Assembly: GCA_944392565.1 (NCBI GenBank)
Contig: CALXWX010000001.1
Location: 127,444-191,443, forward strand
Source of the DNA: an uncultured Alphaproteobacteria bacterium
GTDB lineage: Bacteria > Pseudomonadota > Alphaproteobacteria > Rs-D84
Direction of reading: 5' to 3'
DNA length: 64,000 nt
The notes under the pieces were generated by a model, which saw only the letters and a list, made by a program, of their open reading frames with translations, was not told the DNA's origin and did no database searches. A program made the position numbers and the translations under genes. Positions 28,850 to 40,894 of the stretch are shown piece by piece. Every line of letters begins with the position of its first letter. Positions within the stretch are counted from its first letter, which is position 1.

Positions 28850-29326
28850 ATGAAAGATAATAAAAAATCGAATAATCAATCGGCAAAACCGACCAAGAAA
28901 AGAAAAACAACATATGGTCTGAAAATATCTGAAAATCACAATATAAACCTGCCTGCTAAAAACACAATATCACTGACCGTGGTAACAATGAACGGCATGC
29001 CTGTACCAAATCAGGTCAAAGAAATGATTGATTTGGATATTCAAGATCCAACATTAAAAAGAATGATTCGTTTCTATACCATAAATAAAGATTTTATGGA
29101 CGCCCATGAATTAAAACTGGCAACAACAATCATTGAATATAACGATAAATACGATTCAGTGGTGGCAATACTGTTCCCAACAAATGAAGTATTGGTACGC
29201 GATGATATATCAGACCTGTACAATCACTTAAATCGTGCCACGCGCCATGATATGGATTATCAAATGCGCTTGCGCCGACAACTGATTGCAAAAATTGCAA
29301 AATTACGCAAACAAAGAAAGAAATAA
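28850..29326 (+). CDS. Hypothetical basic protein (158 aa)
   Basis: Not recognised. The first ~22 residues are Lys/Asn/Ser-rich and probably disordered. The middle has a compact mixed alpha/beta part (ISLTVVTMNGMPVPNQVKEMIDL, ATTIIEYNDKYDSVVAILFPTNEVLV). The last 40 residues are a strongly basic helix (RRQLIAKIAKLRKQRKK). No signal peptide, so a cytoplasmic, possibly nucleic-acid-binding role is a guess. It has its own promoter, an AAAGGA ribosome-binding site, and ends at the edge of the 459-bp inverted repeat. Confidence 0.65.
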   Translation: MKDNKKSNNQSAKPTKKRKTTYGLKISENHNINLPAKNTISLTVVTMNGMPVPNQVKEMIDLDIQDPTLKRMIRFYTINKDFMDAHELKLATTIIEYNDKYDSVVAILFPTNEVLVRDDISDLYNHLNRATRHDMDYQMRLRRQLIAKIAKLRKQRKK

Positions 29327-29783
29327 AAAAACCGAACGCCGATGTTTTATGGACATCGGCGTTTTGTTTTCCGCATCTTACTGTTATTGGATACCGACTT
29401 GGAACTCGTCACCCCAGCCGGATACTACCTGACCACCGACTGTGCATTGGATATCTTCAAAACCACCTTCTACCTGGTTCTTCTTTACTACATGACTGGT
29501 TATTAATCCACCCGCTGTACCCAGTACAACACCAGCAATCGAATCAGATAACAGGCGCGATGTGTTAAATCCTCCCTCCGCATTCTTCCACTTGCTGCGG
29601 TCCAGCGTCGATACTATACTCTCTATATCCGATATCGCACCCTCTATCCGACGACGCGATGCATTTTGTTGTTGGGTTAATTGTGCCGCCGCATTTTCCT
29701 GGTTTATTAATGCTAATAATTGATTATACATTGCAATAAATGTATTTTCATTCGGATTACCCTCGCAATACTGTATAATCGCC
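29325..29783 (-). repeat. 459-bp inverted repeat, left copy
   Basis: Reverse complement of 31991-32449 with a single mismatch seen in 459 bp and no gap. It includes the terminator hairpin (about 29335-29363) and the 3' ~400 bp of the 520-aa gene. The two repeats enclose 2.2 kb with the variable parts and promoters of both genes. Confidence 0.95.
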
Positions 29784-30946
29784 ATTATTTGAGTAGATAT
29801 TTTTGCACTGGATGCGTATTGTACCTGTAACGATGCCAGTTGCGCCATTCTTGCAGGATCGCATTCATATTCTGGTTCCAGGGGTGGTTCTGGTTCGACT
29901 GGTGGGGGTGTGCCCCCAGATTGCTGCGGAACACATACACCACCACTGCGTGGATTGATGTTTGGAACAAACTTATTGGTGTCTGGGTTTTGTGCACATA
30001 TACACGCACTGCCATTCCAGTTCGCAACAGACGATGATACATGACAACATGCAACACATTCGTTGTATTTACTGCCAGTTAACCCATTACAACGCGTCTG
30101 TTCACACTGATTTGGTCCGGTACCACCACCACCGTTGTTGTTATTACCATTGTTATTGTCTGTTGGATCACATTTCCCAGTGCTGCCGTTTGGTGTATAA
30201 CCATTTGGACATTTAGTTGCCTTGCATACTAATGTCGGACCAGCACGACATACCATATCAAATTCTAATCCCTTGTCTTCCAAGATGTTTGCCCCGCTAT
30301 CCAAACAGTCTTGTTTGGTCGCAACACCTGGATACTTCATACCAACATTTATAGTTCCAAATTTTGAATGGCATACAGAATTATTTGACGGTGGTTGTGC
30401 CGGCTGACCGGAAGTTTCTGGTACACACATATTACCATTAAGACTTTTATACCCCCTCACACATCCCCTGTATCTACATACAGATAATTGTGGTCCTGTT
30501 TGATAAATTACATTTGAAACACTGCCGCGATTACATTGACCGGCGCGTATTTCAGTTAACATCGCGTTTTCTATATAGCCATCCATTTGTGACAGTGGTG
30601 AATCCCCACATGTACATAATGCGCTTTCTGGAATTTGTTGCCAACTATCATCTGGTCCAGCATCATCCACGCATTGAAATGCAGCACCCTGACCACCAGG
30701 TCGCGCAATTACAACAGTATCGCCATAATCACATTGTGAATTTGAACCACCAGTATCACACATATAGCACATTTTACTGCTAAATCGGCGATCGTCGTTA
30801 TTATTAGGACCACCTGTTATACCATCTTCTGTCAACATTTCTGATACATCATATGAAGATTCGTCACATATGATTGGTGTACACGCCCCCGCATAAGCAA
30901 ACCCATTTATGCAACAAATACTAAATATCAGTAAAAGTTTTTTCAT
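29384..30946 (-). CDS. Modular secreted Cys-rich protein with shared C-terminal domain (520 aa)
   Basis: Signal peptide (residues 1-19, CINGFAYA), then ~240 residues with many cysteines (CYMCDTGGSNSQC, CTCGDSPLS, CRYRGCVRGYKSLNGNMC). An Asn/Gly linker (NNNGNNNNGGGG) leads to a CEQTRCNGLTGSKYNECVACC module and a Pro/Glu linker. The last ~165 residues are a coiled coil, a Gly-rich TM-like helix (DSIAGVVLGTAGGLITSHVV) and GGFEDIQCTVGGQVVSGWGDEFQVGIQ. The final ~130 residues are identical to those of the divergent gene at 31098. Function unknown; probably surface-exposed with an envelope-anchored tail. Confidence 0.8.
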   Translation of the reverse strand: MKKLLLIFSICCINGFAYAGACTPIICDESSYDVSEMLTEDGITGGPNNNDDRRFSSKMCYMCDTGGSNSQCDYGDTVVIARPGGQGAAFQCVDDAGPDDSWQQIPESALCTCGDSPLSQMDGYIENAMLTEIRAGQCNRGSVSNVIYQTGPQLSVCRYRGCVRGYKSLNGNMCVPETSGQPAQPPSNNSVCHSKFGTINVGMKYPGVATKQDCLDSGANILEDKGLEFDMVCRAGPTLVCKATKCPNGYTPNGSTGKCDPTDNNNGNNNNGGGGTGPNQCEQTRCNGLTGSKYNECVACCHVSSSVANWNGSACICAQNPDTNKFVPNINPRSGGVCVPQQSGGTPPPVEPEPPLEPEYECDPARMAQLASLQVQYASSAKISTQIMAIIQYCEGNPNENTFIAMYNQLLALINQENAAAQLTQQQNASRRRIEGAISDIESIVSTLDRSKWKNAEGGFNTSRLLSDSIAGVVLGTAGGLITSHVVKKNQVEGGFEDIQCTVGGQVVSGWGDEFQVGIQ

Positions 30947-30951
30947 TTATC

Positions 30952-31093
30952 TCTCCATGCCGAAAATAAGCCAAGGGTTGTTTTAGACACCCCAATGGTA
31001 CTTAATTAGTTGTATTTTATCACATTTTTCAGGCTTTTCCAATAACGAATTTTGCCGAATCCAAAGGTTGGTTTATTTTCGGCATGGAGAGAT
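30952..31093. promoter_or_regulatory. Shared divergent leader with mirrored sequences
   Basis: TCTCTCCATGCCGAAAATAA just before the left gene and its reverse complement before the right gene flank the ~100-bp intergenic core. Each 5' leader also has a CCAAGG/CCAAAGG...TTG string. So both genes share the same ribosome-binding leader (CGGCATGGAGAGAT) as well as the same 3' end. Confidence 0.75.
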
Positions 31094-31097
31094 TCGT

Positions 31098-32390
31098 ATG
31101 AAAAAAATAATTTTAAGTATTTTTATAATTTGTGGCTTGCAATTGCCTGCTTTGGCGGCAACTTATAATTGTCAGGTTCAAGAAATTTCTGCTTGGTCAA
31201 TTAAAAGATCTAATGAATTTCTATTTCCAACATATGGGGACTATAATGATGCAAATGGACGCGCACTGGTTTGTGGACACAGGGAGACAAACGGATGCGA
31301 TTCAGGTGCTATGGTGCTTATAAATGGTGAACATTATTGGCGTAATAATAGGTACGAAGGAATGAATGTATACGTGTGTTCAACCGGTGGTGCTAATGCA
31401 TGGGCAAGTAATAATAAAGATTATATACAAGTATGCAACAATACATCAGGAAAAAACAAGGTTGGAACAGATGGACGTTTTGATTACTATTGCACGAATG
31501 TTGTAAACAGCTATGTTAATAATTGGTATTGTGTTGGACAAAATGGGACGGACATTTGTCGTGTTGCGGTTGACACAACACCAACGCCGACACCTGCGCC
31601 TACGCCAACACCGACTCCTACGCCTACGCCTGCGCCAACACCGACACCTGCACCAACGCCAGCACCATCATGTGAACAGACGCGCTGCAGTGCATTAACT
31701 GGCAGTAAAAAGAATGAATGTATTGCATGCTGCAATGTACCAGCAAGTGTTGCAGTTTGGAGAAACTATCAATGTATTTGTATAGATAACGACCAGACAT
31801 TTATTTCAGCCGACAATCCACGCAACGGCGGTGTATGCATAAACATTGATTTACCAACACCAACGCCAGCGCCGGAACCCGAGCCAGACCCAGAACCAGC
31901 ATACATATGCGATCCTGCAATTATGGCGCAGCTTACGACAACATTACAGATACAATATGCATCTAATACAACAATATCTGGTAAAATATTGGCGATTATA
32001 CAGTATTGCGAGGGTAAACCGAATGAAAATACATTTATTGCAATGTATAATCAATTATTAGCATTAATAAACCAGGAAAATGCGGCGGCACAATTAACCC
32101 AACAACAAAATGCATCGCGTCGTCGGATAGAGGGTGCGATATCGGATATAGAGAGTATAGTATCGACGCTGGACCGCAGCAAGTGGAAGAATGCGGAGGG
32201 AGGATTTAACACATCGCGCCTGTTATCTGATTCGATTGCTGGTGTTGTACTGGGTACAGCGGGTGGATTAATAACCAGTCATGTAGTAAAGAAGAACCAG
32301 GTAGAAGGTGGTTTTGAAGATATCCAATGCACAGTCGGTGGTCAGGTAGTATCCGGCTGGGGTGACGAGTTCCAAGTCGGTATCCAATAA
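31098..32390 (+). CDS. Modular secreted protein with TP-repeat hinge and shared C-terminal domain (430 aa)
   Basis: The ATG at 31098 follows GGAGAG; an upstream TTG is part of the shared leader. Signal peptide (residues 1-20, LQLPALA), a ~140-residue N-terminal domain with six to eight Cys and Trp/Asn-rich loops, unlike that of the sister gene, then a 30-residue Thr/Pro/Ala hinge. A CEQTRCSALTGSKKNECIACC module, a second Pro/Glu hinge and the C-terminal coiled coil plus Gly-rich helix follow, with the last ~130 residues identical to the sister protein. Different heads on one tail suggest exchangeable surface domains. Confidence 0.8.
   Translation: MKKIILSIFIICGLQLPALAATYNCQVQEISAWSIKRSNEFLFPTYGDYNDANGRALVCGHRETNGCDSGAMVLINGEHYWRNNRYEGMNVYVCSTGGANAWASNNKDYIQVCNNTSGKNKVGTDGRFDYYCTNVVNSYVNNWYCVGQNGTDICRVAVDTTPTPTPAPTPTPTPTPTPAPTPTPAPTPAPSCEQTRCSALTGSKKNECIACCNVPASVAVWRNYQCICIDNDQTFISADNPRNGGVCINIDLPTPTPAPEPEPDPEPAYICDPAIMAQLTTTLQIQYASNTTISGKILAIIQYCEGKPNENTFIAMYNQLLALINQENAAAQLTQQQNASRRRIEGAISDIESIVSTLDRSKWKNAEGGFNTSRLLSDSIAGVVLGTAGGLITSHVVKKNQVEGGFEDIQCTVGGQVVSGWGDEFQVGIQ
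31576..31669 (+). repeat. Thr-Pro/Ala-Pro codon repeat
   Basis: Runs of ACNCC(G/A/T)-type six-base units (ACACCAACGCCGACACC...) encode the PTPTPAPTPTP hinge. Six-base periodicity means slippage keeps the frame and would change hinge length. Confidence 0.8.
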
Positions 32391-32449
32391 CAGTAAGATG
32401 CGGAAAACAAAACGCCGATGTCCATAAAACATCGGCGTTCGGTTTTTTT
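31991..32449 (+). repeat. 459-bp inverted repeat, right copy
   Basis: Partner of 29325-29783. Paired positions always sum to 61774, so there is no indel. It holds the 3' part of the 430-aa gene plus the terminator hairpin (about 32411-32439). GAG and ATA/GTA codons are unusually frequent here compared with neighbouring genes, which prefer GAA. Confidence 0.95.
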
Positions 32450-37750: not shown

Positions 37751-37781
37751 GTAAAACACGGGGCAACGCCCCGTGTTTTAC
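37751..37781 (-). terminator. Terminator of the 964-aa Cys-rich gene
   Basis: Long perfect stem GTAAAACACGGGGC / GCCCCGTGTTTTAC with loop AAC; it contains the stop codon of the gene. Confidence 0.85.
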
Positions 37782-40698
37782 ATACTGTCATCATATACCG
37801 AATATGTCGTACCACCCGAATTTATACGCAGACTGCCCTTGGTCGCCGTTGACATATTCCCATAGAACACATCGCCATTTATACTGATGTTCAATGACGG
37901 CGTGGTCTTTTTCGTGCTGCGCAGATATATCTTTTCATCACCAACATTTAACACACGCCCGCAATCACCCGCTTCATCCGCCCCAAGCCCAGAACCAATC
38001 GTGGTTAATCCCGATGCACATGCATTACGCCCCAGTGTGGATGTTTGTGATACTGTGCCACCGGCACCCCAATATCCAACACCGACATTCACGCATCCAT
38101 CACCCGCCGTTGGAACATATTCACCACCAGAACATGTGATTTTACAATCCGATGCAGAATCATGATTTGTTAATGCCGTGCCATTGATGGTGTAATCACG
38201 GTTGCACGATGTGCATGATTTTACCATTCCGCCCGCGCTGTATGTATTACCAGTGCATGGTATACACATATTATCAAAATCGTATACCTCGCCCACAATT
38301 TGCATATTACCATATTCTTCATTAAAACCAGAATCCAATATTGCACCCGGGACAGCCTTGATATGCTGGGCAAGATTAACACCATCCCATGTGGTTGGAC
38401 TGCCCGCTTGTTGAAATATTACTGTATTTGAATCCGCTGCAACACAATATGGATTTAATGCACTGGGATCACCGGTGATTTGTACGCAGTCTGTATACGA
38501 CTGCATGCCTGTTTCTGCATAGTACTCAAATCCATCCGTTAATTCCGGACATGCGGTACATGATGTTGCCGTGCCACCCGCACTGTATGTCCCAACACCA
38601 CATTGGGTACACATATTATCAAAATCGTATGCGCTATTTTCAACAACCATTGATCCATATTCATTAAAGTCCGAACCCAATATTGCACCGGGAGCAGCCC
38701 CAATCCCCTGGGCAAGAGTAACAGCATTCCATGTGGTTGGACTGTCTGCCTGCTGCCAGATTCCTGTGTTTTGACTTGTTGCAACACAATTTGGATTTAC
38801 GGCGCTGGGGTCACGGGTAAGTTGTTGGCATTGCGTATACGACGACGCGCCCGCGCTTCCTGTGTAATCAAACCCCGGGGTTAATTCCGGACATGCGGTG
38901 CATGATGTCGCTGTGCCGCCTGCACTGTACGAACCCACGTCGCATTTCCTACATAACGCTATTAATGGATAACGACCTTCTACATGCAATACCCCATCCT
39001 GGAATTGTGAATCCAATATTGCACCTGGTTTTGCCACAACGCCAACCGCAATAACACCCCCATTCCAACTGGTTGGGCTGCTGGCTGTTTGAAGGATTAC
39101 AACAGTATCTGCAGTATCATCCGCCATACAATTTGGATTTGCTACACTGGGGTCATTTGTATATTGCGCGCATTCTGTATATGACGACGCGCCCGCGCTT
39201 GCTGTGTAATCAAACCCCGGGGTTAATGCCGGACATGCGGTACACGCGCGAACATCGCCGCCTGCACTGTATTCACCAATACCACATTGTGTGCATGTCA
39301 GACTTATCCCACTGCCCGTGACGATGGCACCCGGATCAGCCTGGAATGCTTCGTATTCGATAATTACTGCCGCAGTTGGGGTATGACCATCGGGCGGCTG
39401 ACCATACATTGCCCGCAATTCACCCGATGCGCAATAACTGCTGATATCTGTTGCACGGCGATAAAAATAACAATCATTCTCTGATTCCCATCCGGTACCA
39501 GTCCCCTGGTTCCATCCACTGACCGTTGTTGTCGGACATGCGGTACATGATGTCACATCACCACCCGCGCTGTATACGGCGCCACTGCATTGCGTACATG
39601 TTGTATCTATACCACTGCCGGAAACATATGCGCCCGGGTCGGCACGGAATGCGGTATATTCTGATGCCGTAGGCGCCCACGCCGTCGCGCTGCTGGCATA
39701 TCGGCGCAATTGCCCCGATGCGCAATATGAACTGATACTGGTTGCGTTGCGATATTCAAAACATTGCCCGTATCCAGACCATCCGGTACCGGTACCCTGG
39801 GTCCAGCCACTGGTCGCGGTTGGGCATGCGGTACATGATGTCACCACACCACCCGCGCTGTATGTTGCGCCACTGCATGGTTCACACGCTTTTGAAAAAT
39901 CAAAACCACCATCAAATTCAAATTGTAACGGATTTATTTGCGTTAAATTATTGCCAACATTAATATAACGCCCAGCATTGGCGGAAAAAAATAAAATTTC
40001 ACCATTTTCTTCCCACCTGGTATTATCATCTGCATGCACCAATATAATACCAGTACTACAATCAGCATCAAAATTAGTTATGCTGTTCGTCTGTATACAT
40101 GCCGTTGCTGTTGTTGCCCCCGATGACTCACTGTAATACTCAAATCCCTCACTTGGCGTTGGACATGATTGACATGCATCAATTGCATGCAATGAACTGT
40201 CCTTGTATGTACCCGCCGGACATTCTTTCCATACCGCATAAACAGTTGTATTGCCAGATACAGTAATTGAAAAACTGCCGTCTTCGGCATCTGGATCGGT
40301 TGACCATCCAACCAATTGATATCCCGCGCGATAAAAACTGTTGGTATTACCACTGTTTAATGTGCAAGGGTTTGTAATACATATTGAAGAAGCCGGTGCA
40401 GTTCCTGAACCACCGTTTAAATTATAAGTAATTCTTTTTGCTGCTATCATGGCACGGCTTGGACATTTATTTCCCCCCGGACAAGAATAACTGATGGTGC
40501 CCGAACCGGTTGGACATGTTTTGCATGAATTTCCAGCACTGGGGTCTGTTATGGTTCCTCCATTAAAAAATGTACCGCAATCTGATAAATAATATCCGCT
40601 GCTGCACGAAGTATATTTACGATATGCAGGGCAATTATACCCCGCCGCATCCGCAACAGATGCAAAACACAACAGAATTAATAAAGAGAAAAAAAAGT
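37778..40698 (-). pseudogene. Giant Cys-rich repeat surface protein, start codon lost or unrecognised
   Basis: The open frame encodes ~970 residues. After a signal-like stretch (FFFSLLILLCFASVADA-AGYNC) come a Cys-rich part, an InlB B-repeat/Listeria-Bacteroides unit (ITYNLNGGSGT...FYRAGYQLVGWST...VYAVW, ~80-150), then six modules of the type C..CxxGxYSAGGxxTSCTACPxLTxGFDY, and a C-terminal beta-rich part (ends TYSVYDDSM). No ATG or GTG lies in frame: the codons before FFF read T-D-H and then a stop. The only near-start is a TTG inside the signal peptide (40672), which would destroy it and has no ribosome-binding site. Either the 5' end was replaced by a rearrangement near 40698 or a rare start codon is used. 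Confidence 0.6.
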
Positions 40699-40894
40699 GG
40701 TCGGTTTATTTCGGCAACAACAGGGGGTAAAAATGCGGCAGAAATCGGGGATTTTATTTGGTAATAATATTGCTAATTTAATCCACCCTTTGGATTAGGC
40801 ATAGTTAATTCGCCCTACATGCCCCATATTATATGGATTTTTTGCATATTTTACAAGTTGAAAAATTAAATTCACACAAACAAACACCATTAAT

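Follow-up and report, generated by a model that had tools for sequence, protein, structure and literature searches.

Between parE and dnaA of an uncultured Alphaproteobacteria bacterium lies a divergent pair of genes for exported-type proteins, here called HEADA and HEADB, whose N-terminal heads are unrelated and whose C-terminal tails are identical. The pair is part of a 64,000-nucleotide stretch (assembly GCA_944392565.1, contig CALXWX010000001.1, positions 127,444 to 191,443 of the forward strand; hereafter the window). It is probably a two-gene surface-protein diversification locus in which a promoter segment flips, the tails are homogenised, and the heads are exchanged as cassettes. At the level of sequence, comparison with relatives establishes that the tails evolve in concert, that heads are replaced, that the core between the tails has inverted, that one promoter accompanies two genes, and that segments bounded by the same family of sites lie inverted at other loci.

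Each gene joins a leader with signal peptide, both constant, to an exchangeable head and then to a C-terminal tail that is constant as well. In the proposed mechanism, a site-specific recombinase would flip the promoter segment, presumably in living cells at this very locus, and thereby select which of the two genes, the HEADA type or the HEADB type, is transcribed. The tails, as long inverted repeats, would recombine homologously and so stay identical, and the same recombination would occasionally invert the whole core with its promoter. In the course of evolution, head cassettes would be exchanged through recombination with one anchor in the conserved leader and signal peptide and the other in the linker and tail. 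The two proteins are presumably surface-exposed, as their signal peptides suggest, and the variation would be directed toward a host, a partner, or a phage.

Organism and genomes compared

Through the relatives found, the window organism is placed in Candidatus Enterousia, order Rs-D84. These uncultured gut bacteria have reduced genomes of about 1 Mb or less and a probable symbiont or parasite lifestyle, and are thought to depend obligately on other cells in this way (PMC12306168). The window's own genome (G000) measures 939 kb and is 99% complete; other G numbers denote the genomes of relatives, all of them, like G000, metagenome assemblies, and L numbers denote individual loci. G001 is Ca. 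E. avistercoris, and G003, a single chromosome, is Ca. E. intestinigallinarum. The full HEADB protein as query against the relatives' contigs gave no confirmed relative; relatives were recovered instead with an alignment of tails, and the cross-species comparison took in about 150 species. The tail is present in 166 of 201 Rs-D84 genomes and, among the matches listed, all are in the Enterousia family.

Architecture of the pair

The elements of the locus, in window coordinates, are the following.

29325..29835, no strand: outer inverted-repeat arm, left (HEADA terminator, tail, and part of the linker)
29384..30946, minus strand: HEADA gene, 520 amino acids (signal peptide, type-alpha head, cysteine [Cys] module, linker, constant tail)
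30024..30106, minus strand: Cys module of HEADA, 80% DNA identity to 31671-31753 (repeat I2)
30949-30989 / 31053-31093: inner inverted repeat in the leaders, containing the pair of 32-bp palindromic sites
30958..30989, no strand: inner palindromic site, left (13-6-13, degenerate copy)
31014..31042, minus strand: single promoter, TTGGAA-17-TAAAAT, pointing to HEADA
31053..31084, no strand: inner palindromic site, right (family pattern without mismatch)
31101..32390, plus strand: HEADB gene, 429 amino acids (signal peptide, type-beta head, Pro/Thr-rich spacer, Cys module, linker, constant tail)
31671..31753, plus strand: Cys module of HEADB (repeat I2)
31939..32449, no strand: outer inverted-repeat arm, right (part of the HEADB linker, tail, and terminator; ends at the dnaA stop codon)

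The outer arms are 511 nt long, gapless, and 97% complementary. All 13 mismatches lie within 31941-32018, and 32019-32449 (431 nt) is perfect. The gapless 459-bp inverted repeat with one mismatch that was described in the initial annotation is thus recovered as 31991-32449, with its mismatch at 32018, inside this longer repeat. The perfect repeat takes in the terminator, and its outer ends coincide with the stop codons of dnaA and of a 158-residue open reading frame (ORF). HEADB is counted from an ATG with a good ribosome-binding site, and the starts of both proteins are signal-peptide-like as judged by eye. The same annotation had described divergent exported proteins with little-alike heads, a related Cys module, and identical tails, which agrees with the comparison of the two products: BLASTP finds no match between the heads (the first ~280 residues of HEADA and the first ~200 of HEADB), the Cys module and linker are about 63% identical, and the tails are identical.

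Across the genus, the gene order parE, small ORF, tail gene, dnaA, dprA, orf306, plsY, rpsT is conserved. Where dnaA and parE are both in view (71 loci), a single tail gene reading with dnaA is the usual arrangement (53 loci); the rest comprise six head-to-head pairs, two tandem pairs, nine loci with no tail gene, and one left unjudged, with parE too distant. Further pairs are seen in part in G031 and G119, and that of G016 sits elsewhere than between dnaA and parE. Because the paired architecture recurs with other sequences in at least eight further assembled species, the inverted-repeat pair is not a chance arrangement.

More pairs are very probably present but unassembled in four genomes (G147, G108, G135, and G115), since their contigs end inside the tail with a shared stretch. 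In the first three, the contigs on both sides of the locus break within the tail, and the broken ends share an identical stretch of 99 nt (G147), 77 nt (G108), or most of 83 aligned nt (G135); the 102 nt shared by the contig ends of G115 are 97% identical. In G168, which belongs to another genus, two separate tail genes (L167 and L168) are both cut at contig ends inside the tail, which suggests near-identical tails at separate loci.

Concerted evolution of the tails

In nine divergent pairs (the window, G153, G145, G016, G104, G031, G130, G072, and G119), the tails are 91-100% identical in DNA sequence, and the similarity is lost abruptly upstream. Tails of the tandem pairs are 76% and 87% identical, and dispersed copies within one genome mostly 67-83% (identities near 0.3 are extraction frame offsets and were disregarded). 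Among dispersed copies, those of G030 (0.90) and G060 (0.94) stand out as highly similar; homogenisation is thus strongest in inverted neighbours but not confined to them.

Several comparisons of sister species indicate that the arms change together. Eight pairs have partners that group as sisters in the tail tree; the two copies of G119 fall beside those of G104. The window and G147 differ by three substitutions in about 99 nt, each of them common to both arms within a species. The arms of G104 differ at 0 of 189 sites and show 9-12 differences from those of G119; in the comparison of G145 with G135, where the repeat stands at both contig ends, one difference is seen within and 11-12 between. 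These three comparisons indicate that a pair can predate a species split while its arms agree within each species. At third codon positions, none of 63 differ within the pair in the window, G104, or G130, whereas at least 20 differ between the window and G001 and between G145 and G153. Ongoing homogenisation of the arms, as initially proposed, is therefore upheld by the nine pairs and by species-specific changes present in both arms, and the tail arms evidently evolve in concert. The contrary pattern, tails that differ between the two copies in step with their heads, had been named beforehand as one that would refute the proposal; the data contradict it, the tails being homogeneous within each species while the heads are unrelated.

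Exchange of heads

The genomes G151 and G149 have flanks that are 95.0% DNA-identical over 9.9 and 9.0 kb and one differing island (436 vs 569 nt), which runs from the interior of the signal peptide to the linker and is exactly the head. The same head-only difference occurs between G041 and G015 (flanks 95%) and between G104 and G119 (flanks 89%). The second gene of G104 is headless and begins directly in the tail. When close genomes, with a tail identity of at least 0.92, are set side by side, heads are replaced in four of five cases, these three and G095/G090, and the head is kept in one (G152/G102). By these alignments, heads are swapped as cassettes between otherwise constant genes. The type-alpha head is also found in G001 (63% identity over the head), G121, G104, and G153; the head of HEADB is 60% identical to that of the single gene of G151; and the heads of some relatives hold OmpA-like or collagen-like parts.

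The idea that heads also move to other copies within the genome did not survive: a search for more tail copies and other head combinations found the tail and both heads at this locus only, with no further copy of either head, or of the tail beyond its two arms, in the 939-kb genome. Nor does the pattern correspond to a diversity-generating retroelement, as the heads are replaced whole by unrelated sequence and no second head copy exists in the genome. Natural competence may be a route of head exchange in the genus: PF03772 (ComEC) is present in 27 of 31 genomes searched, though it was not found in G000. The gene dprA adjoins dnaA, near the pair.

Inversion of the core

The asymmetric promoter segment of G145 aligns with those of the window, G153, and G155 in the inverted orientation only (z 7.1, 11.3, and 15.4, respectively; z about 0 in the same orientation), and that of G130 also runs opposite to the window's. 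The head type found on the dnaA side in G153 is on the parE side in G145, whose other head, the one bearing the promoter, is similar to the only head of G012. These alignments show that the core has inverted between species, promoter included. The inversion foreseen in the initial annotation thus has occurred on an evolutionary scale, but it fails as a switch: the promoter turns along with the heads, and therefore core inversion alone would not change expression. The more likely switch, the small promoter segment between the palindromic sites, does not figure in the initial annotation.

Promoter segment and palindromic sites

A promoter model was built from single-copy relatives, in which TTGGAA-17-TAAAAT is found in 50 of 68 genes. 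In the window, this model scores 32.9 bits toward HEADA and -17.6 toward HEADB (shuffled maximum 4.1), and it finds no comparable promoter toward HEADB. Eight of the nine pairs have one strong promoter and none opposite; G072 has one each way. The window promoter lies between two inverted 32-bp sites that enclose a segment of 63 bp. At the same locus in G119, the two sites are alike at 32 of 32 positions. Since the window sites are partly degenerate, the window switch may be slow or locked toward HEADA.

The sites belong to a family with the pattern TGCCKAA-N3-AAA-N6-TTT-N3-TTMGGCA, which occurs (with at most three mismatches) at 11 places in G000 and in 15 of 20 genomes searched; a reversed control pattern gave zero matches in the same search. 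Elsewhere, other genes for exported proteins have such site pairs at their 5' ends. The six bases at the centre of a site are asymmetric and, within most site pairs, they match. The outer and inner parts of the arms are symmetric, while full symmetry of the middle triplets is confined to 6 of 41 sites. Site pairs whose arms were poor or whose centres did not match (e.g., L105, L108, L289) were excluded as evidence. Because the centre is asymmetric and matched and the middle triplets are rarely symmetric, the sites look more like a strand-exchange centre with a protein-binding arm on each side than like an RNA hairpin. A hairpin reading of the leader palindromes was rejected, as the middle positions would be unpaired in most copies and the segments invert as DNA.

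Inverted segments between such sites are seen at two orthologous loci whose flanks keep the same order despite the inverted spacer. At the valS locus, a 52-bp spacer is inverted between G000 and G001 (z 10.3 inverted, 2.0 in the same orientation), and at a motB-like locus the spacer is inverted between G000 and G121 (z 15.4 inverted, -0.2 same). Some contig ends fall at predicted flip junctions. Contig C6 of G000 ends exactly 77 nt from the valS flip-junction point, and the two contigs that meet at the tail locus of G119 overlap by exactly 77 nt, measured from the inner edge of the site. An overlap of 77 nt also joins contigs C1 and C6, and this figure is presumably the word length (k-mer) of the assembler. 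Contig breaks exactly 77 nt from the junctions therefore imply that the assembly graph seemingly branched at the predicted flip junctions, which indirectly suggests mixed segment orientations in the sample. No contig break occurs at the pair locus itself in the window genome.

Genes of family PF00589 number five in G000 and two each in the site-carrying genomes G001 and G003. Among the genomes checked, none has fewer than two tyrosine-recombinase genes, presumably XerC and XerD, and some have more. We consider it about evenly balanced whether Ca. Enterousia has a genome-wide inversion system, acting at 13-6-13 sites and controlling exported proteins, of which the promoter at the dnaA locus, flipping between two head genes with recombination-homogenised tails, would be one instance.

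Other loci carry site pairs or contig ends at sites. A second pair in the window (40685-40801; 5 and 3 mismatches) lies at the 5' end of a large Cys-rich exported gene (37778-40672, minus strand), whose start, as assembled, resembles a signal peptide but lacks a good start codon and adjoins a run of eight T; this gene is possibly in a switched-off state. At L276 (G000:C5:828-955), two divergent exported-protein genes without the tail domain share one promoter between two sites, and the six-base centres of these sites match. A further case concerns L274 (G000:C1:22399) and L291 (G121). The 52-bp spacer of L274 holds the ribosome-binding site and start codon of an exported gene, and its inversion would remove both, which would make it an inversion switch of the start-codon type. 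The left end of G000:C1 (L294) and the right end of G000:C4 (L301) both begin exactly with CGGTGG, the centre of a palindromic site. In G014 (L289, L307, L308, L309), several contigs end at distances of 166-266 nt from palindromic sites whose flanks resemble one another, pointing to repeated gene copies there.

Alternative explanations

Several findings weigh against the promoter switch. The two window sites agree at only 24 of 32 positions and at 4 of 6 in the centre. The promoter orientations observed so far at tail loci are explained by core inversion together with head exchange, and among them there is no case of a promoter segment flipped with both heads in place. Some site-rich genomes have only two XerC/XerD-like enzymes. 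The tail has neither a family match nor a confident fold, and a surface location is read from the signal peptides only. It is nonetheless unlikely that the locus reflects just an inverted duplication maintained by RecA-type gene conversion, with the palindromes as operators or RNA elements, an unrecognised HEADB promoter, and no programmed switch. The tail arms alone would account for homogenisation, the leaders of both genes are similar within species, and the degeneracy of the window sites is in keeping with this account. Against it stand the site-flanked segments inverted at two orthologous loci, the contig breaks exactly at flip junctions, the scarcity of sites with fully symmetric middle arm bases (6/41), unlike an RNA hairpin, and the lack of a promoter facing HEADB.

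It is improbable that the antigen switch is the 2.2-kb core itself, inverting by way of the tail repeats. The arms are long and identical and such inversions have occurred between species, but with the promoter inside the core and the genes left whole, product and promoter would be unchanged; moreover, convergent genes end with their stop codons at both flanks. It is very improbable that the gene was duplicated recently and separately in each species, with purifying selection holding the tails identical, even though pairs occur at scattered places in the tree and a single gene is the state of most species (53/71 complete dnaA-parE contexts): third codon positions are identical within pairs while at least 20 differ in the window/G001 and G145/G153 comparisons, sister species share a pair whose arms nevertheless agree within species, and the heads of the two genes are unrelated. 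A false inverted repeat produced by assembly is hardly credible. The sequences come from metagenome assemblies, and contigs do break at such repeats, but the same architecture appears with different heads in many separately assembled genomes, both genes are open and differ in sequence, and the order of the flanking genes is conserved. Promoter flipping combined with homogenised tails and exchanged heads thus remains the probable account.

Flanking genes and database searches

28850..29326, plus strand: 158-residue ORF between parE and the pair, its stop codon touching the outer end of the left arm

This ORF has no Pfam or NCBIfam match. Its identity to the corresponding ORF of G147, the nearest relative, is 63%, against 97% for parE and 95% for dnaA; it is fast-evolving, and some relatives have it in duplicate (L092, L106). 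The genes found within about 8 kb of the pair are uvrC, pgsA, dnaJ, parE, dnaA, dprA, plsY, and rpsT. Pfam and NCBIfam searches with HEADA, HEADB, and the tail returned low-complexity or chance matches only. An AlphaFold model of the tail is confident for the helical linker only, a PDB fold search was empty at E≤0.001, and an Rfam search gave nothing above threshold.

Relation to known systems

The locus is best read as a variation on known promoter-inversion antigen switches, combined with exchange of head cassettes on a constant tail. In the sap S-layer system of Campylobacter fetus, divergent genes are switched by inversion of a promoter segment and recombine between their constant parts, the 5' end being constant and the C-terminus variable. 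The present pair likewise has divergent genes, a promoter segment between them that would invert, and probable homologous recombination of constant gene parts; in contrast to sap, its constant part is the 3' tail and its head is variable. The paralogues babA and babB of Helicobacter pylori, and others like them, are kept alike by gene conversion, and they share with this pair constant ends, a variable middle or head, and conversion between paralogues, but they do not form an adjacent, inverted pair served by one promoter.

In Mycoplasma agalactiae, the Xer1 recombinase inverts a unique promoter to express one of several Vpma surface-protein genes (PMC5634654). The window pair, also in a small-genome organism, has the unique promoter and two complete genes of surface-protein type that mark a Vpma-type system, and its promoter would turn similarly; it differs in having only two genes, another site sequence, and a constant 3' part. 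Invertons and invertible promoters of gut bacteria consist of short inverted repeats (10-40 nt) around a small segment near surface-protein genes (PMC11892184; PMC5903667). Comparable inverted repeats (24/32 positions alike in the window, 32/32 in G119) flank the promoter-bearing segment here, and sites of the same family flank the inverted spacers of the valS (G000/G001) and motB-like (G000/G121) loci. In contrast to invertons, the promoter would select one of two divergent genes instead of turning a single gene on or off, and the sites are 13-6-13 palindromes in a reduced-genome alphaproteobacterium with mutually homogenised 3' ends. DNA inversion also diversifies a surface-exposed part in the R64 shufflon and in phage tail fibres (PMC11852207). 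The shufflon joins partial C-terminal ends to one constant N-terminus, whereas both genes here are complete and have different N-terminal heads.

Biological significance

As inverted neighbours are homogenised and tandem and most dispersed copies are so much less, the pair forms a natural experiment on concerted evolution. If the 32-bp sites are inversion sites, phase variation could be read from existing Enterousia metagenome reads. Even genomes 95% identical to each other can differ in their heads, against an unchanging tail and unchanging flanks, which makes the locus a strong candidate for contact with partner cells, phages, or the host. If the proposed mechanism is true, fast switching by the promoter and slow renewal by head cassettes would be joined in a single 3-kb locus.

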